From NCBI GenBank assembly GCA_015061815.1, contig SUVW01000001.1, forward strand, positions 124,001-188,000: a stretch of 64,000 nucleotides of DNA. The letters run 5' to 3'. Source of the stretch: Lentisphaerota bacterium (GTDB lineage: Bacteria > Verrucomicrobiota > Lentisphaeria > Victivallales > Victivallaceae). Made by a program: the position numbers and the translations under genes. The notes under the pieces were generated by a model, which worked only from the letters and a program-made list of their open reading frames with translations, searched no databases and was not told where the DNA came from. This document shows, one piece after another, positions 30,300 through 36,835 of the stretch. Positions within the stretch are counted from its first letter, which is position 1; every line of letters starts with the position of its first letter.

Positions 30300-31940
<1,641 letters not shown>

Positions 31941-31965: not shown

Positions 31966-32262
31966 TCAGCCGACGATGGCCAGGATATCTTCCTGATTGA
32001 CCACTTTGTACTCTTTGCCGTCGACTTTGACTTCAGTGCCGCCGTAACGGCTGGTCAAAACGATATCACCGACTTTGACATCAAACGGGATCTTGTTGCC
32101 GTTGTCATCATTTTTGCCGGTTCCCAGAGCGACGACGGTGTACTCCTGGGGTTTCTCTTTAGCGGTATCGGGAATAAGGATGCCGCCTTTCATCTCTTCA
32201 GTGTTCTCTTTGAGCTCGAGCAGAACGCGGTCGCCCAACGGTTTGATGTTGACATTTGCCAT
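31966..32262 (-). CDS. groS: Co-chaperonin GroES
   Basis: This 98-residue lid of the GroEL chamber has the start [18 protein letters not shown], the mobile loop [22 protein letters not shown] and the ending [17 protein letters not shown] precedes the ATG. It lies 40 nt before groEL and 92 nt after the dnaK stop. No CIRCE element (TTAGCACTC-N9-GAGTGCTAA) is present upstream. Confidence 0.98.
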
Positions 32263-32296
32263 TTTTGTCTTTCTCCTTGACTTGTTTATGTTAGCT

Positions 32297-32332
32297 GTGC
32301 CACTGCCGCCTTTTCCCGGGAGGCAATGGCAC
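32297..32332 (-). promoter_or_regulatory. Stem-loop in dnaK-groES spacer
   Basis: GTGCCACTGCC (32297-32307) pairs with GGCAATGGCAC (32322-32332), one G-U pair, 14-nt loop. No T run follows on the minus strand. It may be a processing or stability element, or a partial terminator, between dnaK and groES. Confidence 0.6.
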
Positions 32333-32354
32333 TGTCACTTATTGTAACTCTTTA

Positions 32355-34247
32355 TTATTCGACGACTTCGGCATCAACTACGCCATCATCGTTTTTCTTT
32401 TCTCCCTGCGGCGGCGGAGGAGTTCCGGCTCCGGCGGCCCCTTGAGTCTGCTGCTGGGCATAAACGGCTTCCCCGAGCTTCATTGCCAATTCTTCAAGCT
32501 CTTTCATACCGGCCTTGAGAGCTTCGGTATTATCTGCTTCCAGATCTTTTTTCAGTTTGGCGATTTTTTCTTCCAAAGCGGATTTGGTTTCCGCCGGAAC
32601 TTTATCACCATGCTCTTTAAGCTGTTTTTCCAACTGATAGACCATTGAATCGGCGTGGTTGTGAACTTCGATCTTCTCCTTGGCCGCTTTATCATCAGCC
32701 TCATGAGCTTTGGCCTCATTGACCATCTTTTCGATCTCTTCTTCCGAAAGTCCGCTGGAAGCGGTGATGGTTATTTTCTGCTCTTTTCCGGTTCCCAGAT
32801 CTTTGGCGGCGACGTGCAGGATACCATTGGCATCGATATCAAAGGTCACTTCGATCTGCGGCACTCCGCGCGGAGCCGGAGCGATACCGTCAAGTTTGAA
32901 TAATCCCAGAGATTTATTGTCCCGGGCGAGTTCGCGCTCACCCTGAAGCACCCGGACATCCACCGCCGGCTGATTGTCGGAAGCAGTACTGAAAATCTCG
33001 CTCTTTTTGGTCGGGATCGTGGTGTTCCGTTCAATAAGTCTGGTCATCACGCCGCCCATTGTTTCAATACCCAGCGACAGGGGGGTCACATCCAGCAGCA
33101 GCACGTCATTGACTTCACCGCCCAGCACACCGCCCTGGATGGCGGCACCGGCAGCGACCACTTCGTCCGGATTGACACCTTTATGGGGATCTTTACCGAA
33201 AATAGCTTTGGCCGTATCCTGAACTTTCGGCATACGGGTCATACCGCCGACGAGGATAACTTCTTTGATTTGAGAGGCAGAAACTTCAGCATCGCGCATA
33301 CAATTTTCGCACGGTTTGCGGGTACGTTCCAGCAGCGGGTCGCACAAACGCTCCAACTGGGCCCGGGTCAAAGTGATATTCATATGCACCGGTCCATCCT
33401 GATTCATCGTGATGAACGGCAGATTGATATCGCTGGACATACTGCTGGAAAGTTCGCATTTGGCTTTCTCTGCCGCTTCTTTGAGCCGCTGGAGAGCCTG
33501 CGGATCTTTGCGCAGATCGACACTGTTCTCTTTCTGGAACTCCTCTGCCAGATAGTTGATGATGGTCTGGTCGAAGTCATCACCGCCGAGGTGAGTATCA
33601 CCGTTGGTGGCTTTCACTTCGAAAACACCGTCACCGATTTCCAGAGTGGAGATATCAAACGTTCCACCGCCGAGGTCGTAGACCGCGATGGTTTCATCAG
33701 TCTTTTTATCCAATCCGTAAGCCAGAGCGGCGGCGGTCGGTTCATTGATGATACGCAGAACTTCCAGACCGGCGATCTTACCGGCATCTTTGGTGGCCTG
33801 ACGCTGACTGTCATTGAAGTAAGCCGGCACGGTGATAACAGCCTGGGTGATTTTTTCACCGAGATATGCTTCTGCATCAGCTTTGAGCTTCTGCAAAATC
33901 ATAGCGGAAATTTCCGGAGGTGAATAGAGCTTGTCACCGACTTTCACGTGAGCATCGCCATTGGGAGCTTCCGCGATTTCATAGGGAACCAGTTCGCGCT
34001 CTCTGCCGACTTCGGAAAATTTGCGTCCCATCAGCCGTTTGATGGAAAAGATAGTGTTTTTAGGATTGGTCACCGCCTGCCGTTTGGCAGTCTGACCGAC
34101 CAGCCGTTCGCCGCTTTTGGTGAATGCAACGATACTGGGAGTGGTGCGGTTACCTTCCGCATTGGGGATGATTTTGTACTCGCCATTGTCCATGACAGCC
34201 ATACAGCTGTTGGTGGTGCCGAGGTCGATACCGATAATTTTACTCAT
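32355..34247 (-). CDS. dnaK: Chaperone DnaK (Hsp70)
   Basis: This 630-residue Hsp70 has [16 protein letters not shown] (phosphate 1), [33 protein letters not shown] (phosphate 2), and [14 protein letters not shown] (adenosine). The linker [15 protein letters not shown] leads into the substrate domain. The acidic tail is [11 protein letters not shown], after a Gly/Pro-rich stretch. AAGGAG precedes the ATG. grpE, dnaJ and hrcA are not neighbours. It is the first gene of a dnaK-groES-groEL run, with a sigma-54-type promoter about 50 nt upstream. Confidence 0.98.
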
Positions 34248-34294
34248 GATTTTTTCTCCTTTTCTTAAAGGTTGTTTGTTGCACTTCTTACAGG

Positions 34295-34311
34295 AGCAAG
34301 ATATGTGCCAA
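34295..34311 (-). promoter_or_regulatory. Sigma-54-type (-24/-12) promoter of dnaK
   Basis: On the minus strand the sequence is TTGGCACATATCTTGCT. It has the GG at -24 and GC at -12 separated by exactly 10 nt, and matches the RpoN consensus TGGCAC(G)-N4-TTGC(A/T) at all but one key base. The predicted start near 34285 gives a 5' leader of about 38 nt to the dnaK ATG. Confidence 0.7.
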
Positions 34312-34351
34312 CCATTTTTTCAGGATAAAAAAATAATTTTCCGGCATAAAA

Positions 34352-34404
34352 TGTGTCACAATGTCACACTTTGTGTCATAACCTGTGTCACAGCCGGTGT
34401 GTCA
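34352..34404. promoter_or_regulatory. TGTGTCA motif cluster, candidate enhancer-binding sites
   Basis: TGTGTCA occurs at 34352, 34372, 34384 and 34398. The first forms a near-perfect dyad with TGTCACA at 34362-34368 (3-nt spacer). The cluster is about 67-119 bp upstream of the predicted sigma-54 start, the usual range for activator sites. Confidence 0.6.
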
Positions 34405-34648
34405 CGCCCGGCACATGCAATCAGCTTACGTCATACTTACAGTACGCGCGCGATCCGGCAGGATATCAGCTTCTGCTCCGGGGGGGCCGGTAAAAACAGC
34501 GGCAATGCCCGATCCGCATGCGGCAGCCGGATTGAATATCGCAGATTTTCGACCGGATAAATTTTATTTCCCTGCTTGCATTATCTGAAATCAACATTAT
34601 ATTAAATCCCCGTCGGTGAATTAAAGAAATAAAAATGGGGATTTACAC

Positions 34649-36835
34649 ATGATTAAGGTAAGTTACGAATATCCTTTGACAACGATCACCAGCGGTGCGA
34701 TGTTGGGCAACGGTATTACCGGTGAAACGCTCTGGGGCGAAAAAAACGTTCTCAATATCACTCTCGGCAGCGGTAATCTCTGGGATCACCGGGGCGGGAT
34801 GGCCTGGACACCGGGACAGAACTATAAAGCGACAAAAGCTGCTTTGGAAGCCGGTGACATGGGACGGATCAGAGAAATTTTTGCCAGCGACACGAGTTCC
34901 GGGGTAAAGCGTCCGAGCCTGATACCGGTGGGACGGTTGGTCATAACCCTGCCGGAAAATGCAGAATTGCTCCGCTATGAACAGGATCTTGCTGCCGGTA
35001 TCGTAAAGGTCATCTATGAGCAGAATGATAAAGAGAAAGTTTTGACTTTCTGCGCAGATATGAGCATGCATGATGCATTGGCCGGAAGCGGTCTGACCGA
35101 TGAGATGCAGATCACCGTGATCCCGTCCTACGAACTTACCGCCAAAGCTAATTACAAATGGCTTTTGAGTGAACACTCCAGTCTTGCTGAACACGGATTT
35201 GAAGCACCGGAAAAATTCGCGGCGGAAAATATCGCCGGCTTCACCCAGAAAATGCCCGACGATCCGTCATTCACTATGGCATACCGGAAGTTTGATGACG
35301 GAACATTCACCCTGATTTTCCGCAGAGATTTCTCCGGGACTCCGGAAACTTTGCAATGCAATGACTTCAATACGATCAGGGAAAGTTCGGAAAAATTCTT
35401 TGCCGACTACTGGTCGACCGTGCCGGAGATCAAGTATCCGGTCAAAGAGTTGGAAGAGCTCTACTATCACGGCTTATTCAAATATGGCATCATGACCAAT
35501 CCTGCCGGATGTCCTGCCGGATTGCAGGGGCCCTGGATCGAAGATGACCGGCTGCCGCCCTGGCAGGGAGATTATCACTTCAACATCAATGTCCAGATGT
35601 GCCATCTGCCGGGATTGAAGGCCGGAAGATTTGCCAATTTGAAAAACTTTTTCGACATGGTCCTCTCTTGGAAAGATAAACTGCGTTACAATGCAAAATG
35701 TTTCGTCGGCATTGACGATGGTTACATGCTGCCTCATGCGGTGAATGACCGCGCAGTCTGCATGGGCGGATTCTGGACCGGCTGCATCGACCACGCCTGC
35801 GCCGCATGGGTGGCAGGCATGATGTTCGATTATTGCGAATACTCCTGCGACATGGATTATCTGAAAAACGAGGTATATGATTTCATGCTCGGGGTTCTCC
35901 GGGTTTACCGGGCCATGATGGATCAAAGTGCCGACGGCAAACTCTGTCTGCCGCTGACCATCAGTCCGGAATACCGGGGCAGCAGTATTGATGCCTGGGG
36001 CCGCAATGCCAGTTTTCAATTGGCGGCGACTCATCAGCTGGCAGCCAATATCCTCCGGGCAGAGAAACTGCTCGGTATCCCGGCTGATCCGATGAGTCTG
36101 GAAATACGGAAAAATCTGCCGCTGTACAGCATCACCGAAAATCAGCTCTCCCGGGATACCGGAGAACCGCCCAAAAAAGTTATCGCCCTCTGGGAGGGAT
36201 TGGCTCTGGAAGAGAGCCACCGTCACCACTCCCATCTGGCCGGTATATGCCCGTTTGAAGTTATCGACCCGTTTGCCCCTGAAAACGAAGAGCTGGTCAC
36301 CGCTTCCATCGAACAGTGGACCGTCCTCGGCATGGGGTTGTGGACCGGTTGGTGCGTACCCTGGGCATCACAGATTTTCAGCCGGTGCGGCAATGGTGAT
36401 GCTTCAGCATTGATGCTGAAGATCTGGAAGGATTGTTTCACCAATTACGGCGGCGGTTCGCTCCATGACGGCCGCTACAAAGGAGTCACTTACTTCTCGC
36501 AAATTCGCGGTGAAGTCATGCAGATGGATGGCGGAATGGGAGCAGTAACGGCGATCCAGGATCAATTCATGCATGTTTTTGACGGACAGATCCGGGTGTT
36601 TTACGGAGTTCCGCCGCGCCTGAACGATGTATCATTCAAAGATATGTTTGCTCCCGGCGGGTTGAAAGTAAGCGGTTCGATCACCCGCAAAGGCGGCACA
36701 ACCGTAAGCGTTTATGCTCCGCGTGACACAGACTTGCGCCTGAAAGTCCGCAACAGCGAAGAATTCTCCGGCCGGATCAAAGCCGGAGAAACCATCACTT
36801 TGCATCTGAATGACGGGAAACTGGTTCGCGCCTGA
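34649..36835 (+). CDS. Glycoside hydrolase family 95-like protein (alpha-L-fucosidase/galactosidase type)
   Basis: This 728-residue protein has the layout of GH95. The N-terminal beta-sandwich begins with ITSGAMLGNGITGETLWGEKNVLNITLGSGNLWD. A helical barrel carries LQGPWIEDDRLPPWQGDYHFNINVQMCHLPGL (about 287-318), matching the conserved LQG.W...P.W..DYH.NIN.QM block with catalytic-site Asn residues. HRHHSHLAGICPFEVI (about 526-541) matches the family's HRH.SHLYG.YP. GH95 enzymes invert alpha-L-fucosidic or galactosidic bonds. There is no signal peptide, so action on imported sugars is likely. It is transcribed alone, divergent from dnaK, with a terminator at 36869. Confidence 0.85.
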   Translation: MIKVSYEYPLTTITSGAMLGNGITGETLWGEKNVLNITLGSGNLWDHRGGMAWTPGQNYKATKAALEAGDMGRIREIFASDTSSGVKRPSLIPVGRLVITLPENAELLRYEQDLAAGIVKVIYEQNDKEKVLTFCADMSMHDALAGSGLTDEMQITVIPSYELTAKANYKWLLSEHSSLAEHGFEAPEKFAAENIAGFTQKMPDDPSFTMAYRKFDDGTFTLIFRRDFSGTPETLQCNDFNTIRESSEKFFADYWSTVPEIKYPVKELEELYYHGLFKYGIMTNPAGCPAGLQGPWIEDDRLPPWQGDYHFNINVQMCHLPGLKAGRFANLKNFFDMVLSWKDKLRYNAKCFVGIDDGYMLPHAVNDRAVCMGGFWTGCIDHACAAWVAGMMFDYCEYSCDMDYLKNEVYDFMLGVLRVYRAMMDQSADGKLCLPLTISPEYRGSSIDAWGRNASFQLAATHQLAANILRAEKLLGIPADPMSLEIRKNLPLYSITENQLSRDTGEPPKKVIALWEGLALEESHRHHSHLAGICPFEVIDPFAPENEELVTASIEQWTVLGMGLWTGWCVPWASQIFSRCGNGDASALMLKIWKDCFTNYGGGSLHDGRYKGVTYFSQIRGEVMQMDGGMGAVTAIQDQFMHVFDGQIRVFYGVPPRLNDVSFKDMFAPGGLKVSGSITRKGGTTVSVYAPRDTDLRLKVRNSEEFSGRIKAGETITLHLNDGKLVRA

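Follow-up and report, generated by a model that had tools for sequence, protein, structure and literature searches.

Predicted control of dnaK-groES-groEL and clpB by sigma-54 and an upstream activator in Verrucomicrobiota, including Lentisphaeria

Introduction

Which factor drives the major chaperone genes in a bacterium where neither the HrcA repressor nor its CIRCE operator is found? The question was raised by the dnaK-groES-groEL operon of a Lentisphaerota genome (2.5 Mb, 94% complete), which lies on the minus strand of the window, the whole 64-kb stretch of DNA analyzed here. Lentisphaerae, Verrucomicrobia, and Planctomycetes lack HrcA, and conservation of AtoC extends across the PVC bacteria (PMC4989314). 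In our partial coverage of the literature, we found no account of sigma-54 chaperone control or of chaperone regulation in Verrucomicrobiota or Lentisphaerota. A first-pass annotation of the window had proposed that RpoN controls the operon from a -24/-12 promoter with exact GG-N10-GC spacing, had expected transcription to start near 34285, and had seen no CIRCE element; it named as checks the presence of rpoN and of orphan enhancer-binding proteins in the genome and the conservation of the -24/-12 element in relatives. Its finding held and proved larger than claimed: a putative activator site in phase with the promoter was found, and clpB was added as a further target. We consider it highly probable, from sequence comparison, that a sigma-54/activator regulon for proteostasis genes (dnaK-groES-groEL and clpB) stands in place of HrcA/CIRCE and sigma-32 control in Verrucomicrobiota, including Lentisphaeria.

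Results

The features of the locus, all on the minus strand, were as follows.

34372 to 34411, minus strand: further TGTGACAC-type repeats, three copies of a 14-mer at a spacing of 12–14 bp (from sequence)
34352 to 34368, minus strand: putative upstream activating sequence, perfect palindrome TGTGACA-TTG-TGACACA (from pattern search, with enrichment and phasing in relatives)
34295 to 34311, minus strand: sigma-54 (-24/-12) promoter element TTGGCACATATCTTGCT of the dnaK-groES-groEL operon (from pattern match and conservation)
34284, minus strand: predicted transcription start of dnaK, 12 nt past the -12 element (from geometry only)
34256 to 34261, minus strand: Shine-Dalgarno sequence AAGGAG of dnaK (from sequence)
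32355 to 34247, minus strand: dnaK, 630 aa, first gene of the operon, ATG at 34247
31966 to 32262, minus strand: groES, 92 nt downstream of dnaK
30300 to 31925, minus strand: groEL

The element TTGGCACATATCTTGCT, located 47 nt upstream of dnaK, had GG at 34309–34308 and GC at 34297–34296 with exactly 10 nt between them, within the pattern TTGGCAC-N5-TTGCW, and showed a single difference from the textbook sigma-54 consensus, A for G after GGCAC. The RpoN-type fit described in the first-pass annotation was borne out on the minus strand at 34311..34295, and the usual spacing from -24/-12 to +1 predicted a start at about 34284, in agreement with the position expected there. When both strands of the window were scanned with TTGGCAYG-N4-TTGCT, with GG and GC intact and one mismatch at most, TTGGCACATATCTTGCT was the sole site; the whole genome (5 Mb of strand) contained seven sites with no more than one mismatch to the sigma-54 pattern. 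RpoN-dependent transcription from TTGGCACATATCTTGCT is predicted. A single dnaK was detected in the window's genome, with groESL linked to it, and a groES or groEL motif followed dnaK in 29 of 30 relatives examined, the exception being a sequence (L022) that ends just past dnaK. The gap between dnaK and groES (32263–32354) contained an inverted repeat, GTGCCATTGCC..GGCAGTGGCAC, lacking a T-run, which may serve in the processing or stability of the mRNA.

For the analysis of conservation, the 200 bp upstream of dnaK were taken from relatives at growing distance and searched for GG-N10-GC sites with up to three mismatches to TTGGCAYG-N4-TTGCT; expected counts were derived from dinucleotide shuffles of the same sequences and came to about one per group at most. 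Within the window's own order, 72 of 73 genomes had the site (30/30, 37/38, and 5/5); the other orders of the class had it in three of six genomes, and the other classes of the phylum in 45 of 53 (about 0.9 expected). These counts come from related genomes and are not independent trials; the out-of-order sample spans about 36 families. Non-PVC controls (Proteobacteria, Desulfobacterota, Zixibacteria, Nitrospirae, Marinimicrobia, and others) had it in 2 of 69 cases, with 1.08 expected. All six named Lentisphaeria and all three named Verrucomicrobia carried the site. TGGCA and TGC were invariant in all 72 sites of the order, and the spacer drifted. Some lineages (L322, L323, and L372) had no clear sigma-54 site before dnaK. 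In two members of family f24 (L347 and L348), a GGCACG element preceded dnaK with GT replacing the GC at -12, possibly a tolerated variant or a sign of decay. A highly reduced 0.9-Mb Verrucomicrobiota genome (L349, family f25) had a recognizable -24/-12 site, TTGGAACAGATTATGCT, before dnaK, and TTGGCATATATATTGCA was found before dnaK of the unclassified bacterium STD1_172 (L192), which is outside the named PVC set. In genome G183, which we take to be Akkermansia muciniphila ATCC BAA-835, TTGGCATGCCATTTGCA was located about 120 nt upstream of dnaK.

The perfect palindrome at 34352–34368 was situated 40 bp before the -24 element and was the sole perfect copy of the 17-bp pattern TGTGNCA-N3-TGNCACA in the 2.5-Mb genome. 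TGTGACA alone was not enriched in the 64-kb window; the full palindrome is what counts. The TGTGACAC-type repeats at 34372–34411 probably serve the same activator as accessory half-sites. Promoters of dnaK from the window's own genus were used to define the palindrome pattern, which was then tested elsewhere: in other classes, it was present with up to three mismatches in 36 of 53 dnaK regions, versus 5.3 in shuffles. The distance from palindrome to promoter, for which the best palindrome was used where several stood in tandem, ranged from about 30 to 130 bp and clustered at about 40, 51, 63, 74, 84, 96, 107, and 118 bp. This corresponded to a periodicity of 11.1 bp within the order (p 0.0002 versus jittered distances, a result that held when the own genus was thinned) and of 11.2 bp in the independent out-of-order sample (p 0.0002). 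A sigma-54 activator that works by DNA looping requires placement on the same face of the helix at variable distance, and the spacing places the putative upstream site on the correct helical face of the promoter. The palindrome array (34352–34411), which the first-pass annotation had missed, is stronger evidence than the -24/-12 site.

The same arrangement was found at a second locus. The clpB gene of the window's genome had CCGGCACGCTATTTGCT 42 nt before its ATG and TGTGTTGATATGACACA 65 bp upstream. Among 45 clpB regions of the order, 38 contained a sigma-54 site (0.5 expected) and 29 the palindrome, with palindrome-promoter distances similar in phase to those at dnaK. An exact scan of 100 genomes of the order for the composite of palindrome and promoter placed 15 of the 16 matches listed at dnaK and the remaining one directly before clpB. 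In the window's genome, site and palindrome occurred together only at dnaK and clpB among the 100 listed of 110 sites with up to two mismatches; the other listed sites with GG and GC intact were without a good palindrome and mostly inside open frames. The genes grpE, dnaJ, hsp20, and htpG, which were not located, may belong to the regulon as well. Between the clpB module and a divergent RNA-methyltransferase-like gene, a conserved block, GTCATAAATATACACT, was observed (G000:C5; L094/L252; L253–L281), which is probably that gene's own promoter.

The genome encoded an intact RpoN, with the RpoN box ARRTVAKYRE and a TIGR02395 score above the cut-off. A search with PF00158 retrieved one true activator, P0001, the other three matches being Clp or MoxR-type ATPases. 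P0001 (454 aa; G000:C37, L072:1081–2445, just after argS) consists of a receiver (PF00072), a sigma-54 AAA+ domain (PF00158), and a Fis-type HTH (PF02954). Its best NCBIfam model was AtoC, at 440.5 bits versus an equivalog cut-off of 714, and it missed all the NCBIfam equivalog cut-offs shown; its closest solved relatives were NtrC-family activators and ZraR. Of the 100 relatives, 98 had a counterpart of P0001, nearly all at 48–78% identity, and all 46 genera were represented. Many members of the order had 2–14 activators, and in 17 genomes, including the window's, the P0001 counterpart was the sole activator detected (E 1e-20 or better). Since sigma-54 promoters need an enhancer-binding ATPase, the P0001 counterpart would be the protein that fires dnaK in these 17 genomes, provided that the assemblies are complete. 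The GAFTGA loop read GAFTNA in P0001 and nine close relatives (L142–L151), ten genomes, which is an uncommon change in the loop that contacts sigma-54; the more distant orthologues examined had GAFTGA. The checks named in the first-pass annotation were thus answered in its favor: the -24/-12 element was kept in near and far relatives alike (within the order, in 72 of 73 genomes), rpoN was present, and there was exactly one enhancer-binding protein, with no kinase gene adjoining.

We also searched for the usual regulators. A search for the HrcA family, in which the controls matched, came up empty in the window's genome, in 100 relatives of the order, and in 145 genomes of the phylum. No CIRCE element (TTAGCACTC-N9-GAGTGCTAA) was seen at 34240–34660, and in the named relatives L172–L178 the best fits to CIRCE had at least seven mismatches. 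HrcA/CIRCE control was therefore rejected (0 of 145 phylum genomes; no CIRCE before dnaK), and the earlier statement that the element is not seen was confirmed and extended to its repressor. Of five sigma-70-family factors in the genome, two of them smaller (L140 and L141), the three larger proteins were scanned and reached at best 157.7 bits versus the RpoH cut-off of 323 (TIGR02392). RpoH (sigma-32) control was rejected with the three larger factors below the curated cut-offs. A short RpoD-like sigma factor of 246 aa (L139, G000:C3:29647–29850) fell below all RpoH cut-offs. Upstream of dnaK, two weak matches to a sigma-70 promoter were at chance level; an additional sigma-70 start may exist, because chaperones need basal expression.

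Discussion

What computation on the genomes shows is a conserved promoter with a phased palindrome upstream of it, clpB as a target, rpoN, one activator, and no HrcA. Promoter, rpoN, activator, and conservation, with no HrcA, CIRCE, or RpoH found, support at the level of sequence the RpoN control of the chaperone operon proposed in the first-pass annotation. In the mechanism that we propose, dnaK-groES-groEL and, separately, clpB would be transcribed from sigma-54 promoters, where RpoN holoenzyme would sit on TTGGCAC-N5-TTGCT in a closed complex until activated. One activator of the NtrC/AtoC type (receiver, AAA+ ATPase, and Fis-type HTH) would bind TGTGNCA-N3-TGNCACA 40–120 bp upstream, loop on the same helical face, and open the complex by ATP hydrolysis; we infer that P0001 is the protein that binds the palindrome. 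The trigger would be a protein-folding stress signal, presumably heat or unfolded protein. It would perhaps arrive through a remote, unlinked kinase that phosphorylates the receiver, or through an activator held by free DnaK and controlled by DnaK titration. We lean slightly toward a broader reading, in which the whole core heat-shock response of the phylum would be an all-or-none sigma-54 response, with one AtoC-like stress-sensing activator (perhaps by DnaK titration) acting on dnaK-groESL and on clpB. For small gut genomes such as this one, that would be the sole job of sigma-54 and its only activator.

Several other explanations were weighed against this mechanism. That the -24/-12 match before dnaK is a chance resemblance might be suggested by the genome-wide count at two mismatches, which was near background (110 sigma-54-like matches versus 76 for the reversed control pattern). 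However, the site was conserved across dozens of families and absent from nearly all of the 69 non-PVC controls, which refutes chance as a general explanation and leaves it a negligible probability. The palindrome, a symmetrical 17-mer like many repressor sites, could be the operator of a repressor unrelated to sigma-54; we regard this as very unlikely, since it lies 40–120 bp upstream of the promoter and not over it, and since its variable distances keep an 11-bp phase typical of an activator working by looping. It is somewhat easier to imagine, yet still improbable, that an activator other than P0001 serves the promoter in multi-activator genomes or that P0001 acts without binding the palindrome. 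The abundance of activators in many members of the order and the GAFTNA loop of P0001 speak for such a reading, whereas in the window's genome and 16 others only the P0001 counterpart was detected, the single-activator genomes whose dnaK promoter was examined keep the sigma-54 site, and the P0001 counterpart is as widespread as the promoter.

An appreciable though minor chance is left to a further reading, in which the sigma-54 promoter is real and responds to another signal (nutrient, redox, or envelope stress), merely boosting the chaperones, and the main heat-shock start belongs to a sigma-70-family factor. The five sigma-70-family factors and the weak sigma-70-like matches upstream of dnaK are compatible with it, as are the tandem sigma-66 and sigma-54 promoters of the Chlamydia hrcA-grpE operon (PMC8762339). 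Against it, no RpoH-grade factor was found among the sigma factors tested and there was no HrcA, the sigma-70 matches were at chance level, and dnaK-groESL and clpB, the classical heat-shock genes, are almost the only targets in the genome.

A sigma-54 switch would explain how chaperones are regulated in bacteria without HrcA, and the evidence joins two known facts, the absence of HrcA and the conservation of AtoC. If the proposal is true, heat-shock output in the phylum, including Akkermansia, depends on an ATP-driven activator and would therefore be off without it, unlike under repressor or sigma-32 control. Cultivable members make the proposal testable, and public 5'-end data exist for Akkermansia (PMC4782308).

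The proposed system shares its target genes with HrcA/CIRCE and sigma-32 (RpoH) control. However, HrcA/CIRCE is negative control and RpoH uses a sigma-70-type promoter, and our searches turned up no HrcA and, among the sigma factors tested, no RpoH-grade factor. P0001 resembles the AtoC, NtrC, and ZraR activators in its order of receiver, AAA+ domain, and Fis-type HTH, but differs in the missed equivalog cut-offs, the lack of an adjacent kinase gene, and GAFTNA. In Bradyrhizobium, groESL3 is controlled by RpoN and NifA, and is likewise a chaperonin operon with a -24/-12 promoter and an activator site at a distance; it is one of several groESL copies and is tied to nitrogen fixation, whereas here no second dnaK was detected and the groESL in question is the one linked to dnaK. 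The hrcA-grpE-dnaK operon of Chlamydia trachomatis has tandem sigma-66 and sigma-54 promoters with AtoC as the activator (PMC8762339, citing Soules 2020). The likeness extends to sigma-54 on a chaperone operon, a PVC phylum, and an AtoC-type activator, but Chlamydia keeps HrcA/CIRCE and an extra sigma-66 promoter, and HrcA is absent here. Sigma-54 control has been predicted for GroEL, GroES, DnaK, GrpE, DnaJ, and Clp-type genes of Planctomycetota and Bacteroidota (PMC12316311, 2025), and the likeness lies in this predicted sigma-54 dependence of chaperone genes; in the available portion of that paper, there is no mention of chaperones from Verrucomicrobiota or Lentisphaerota, of an activator site or its phasing, or of a regulon of two operons under one activator. 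Sigma-54 chaperone promoters were thus known before, by prediction in Planctomycetota and Bacteroidota and by report in Chlamydia.
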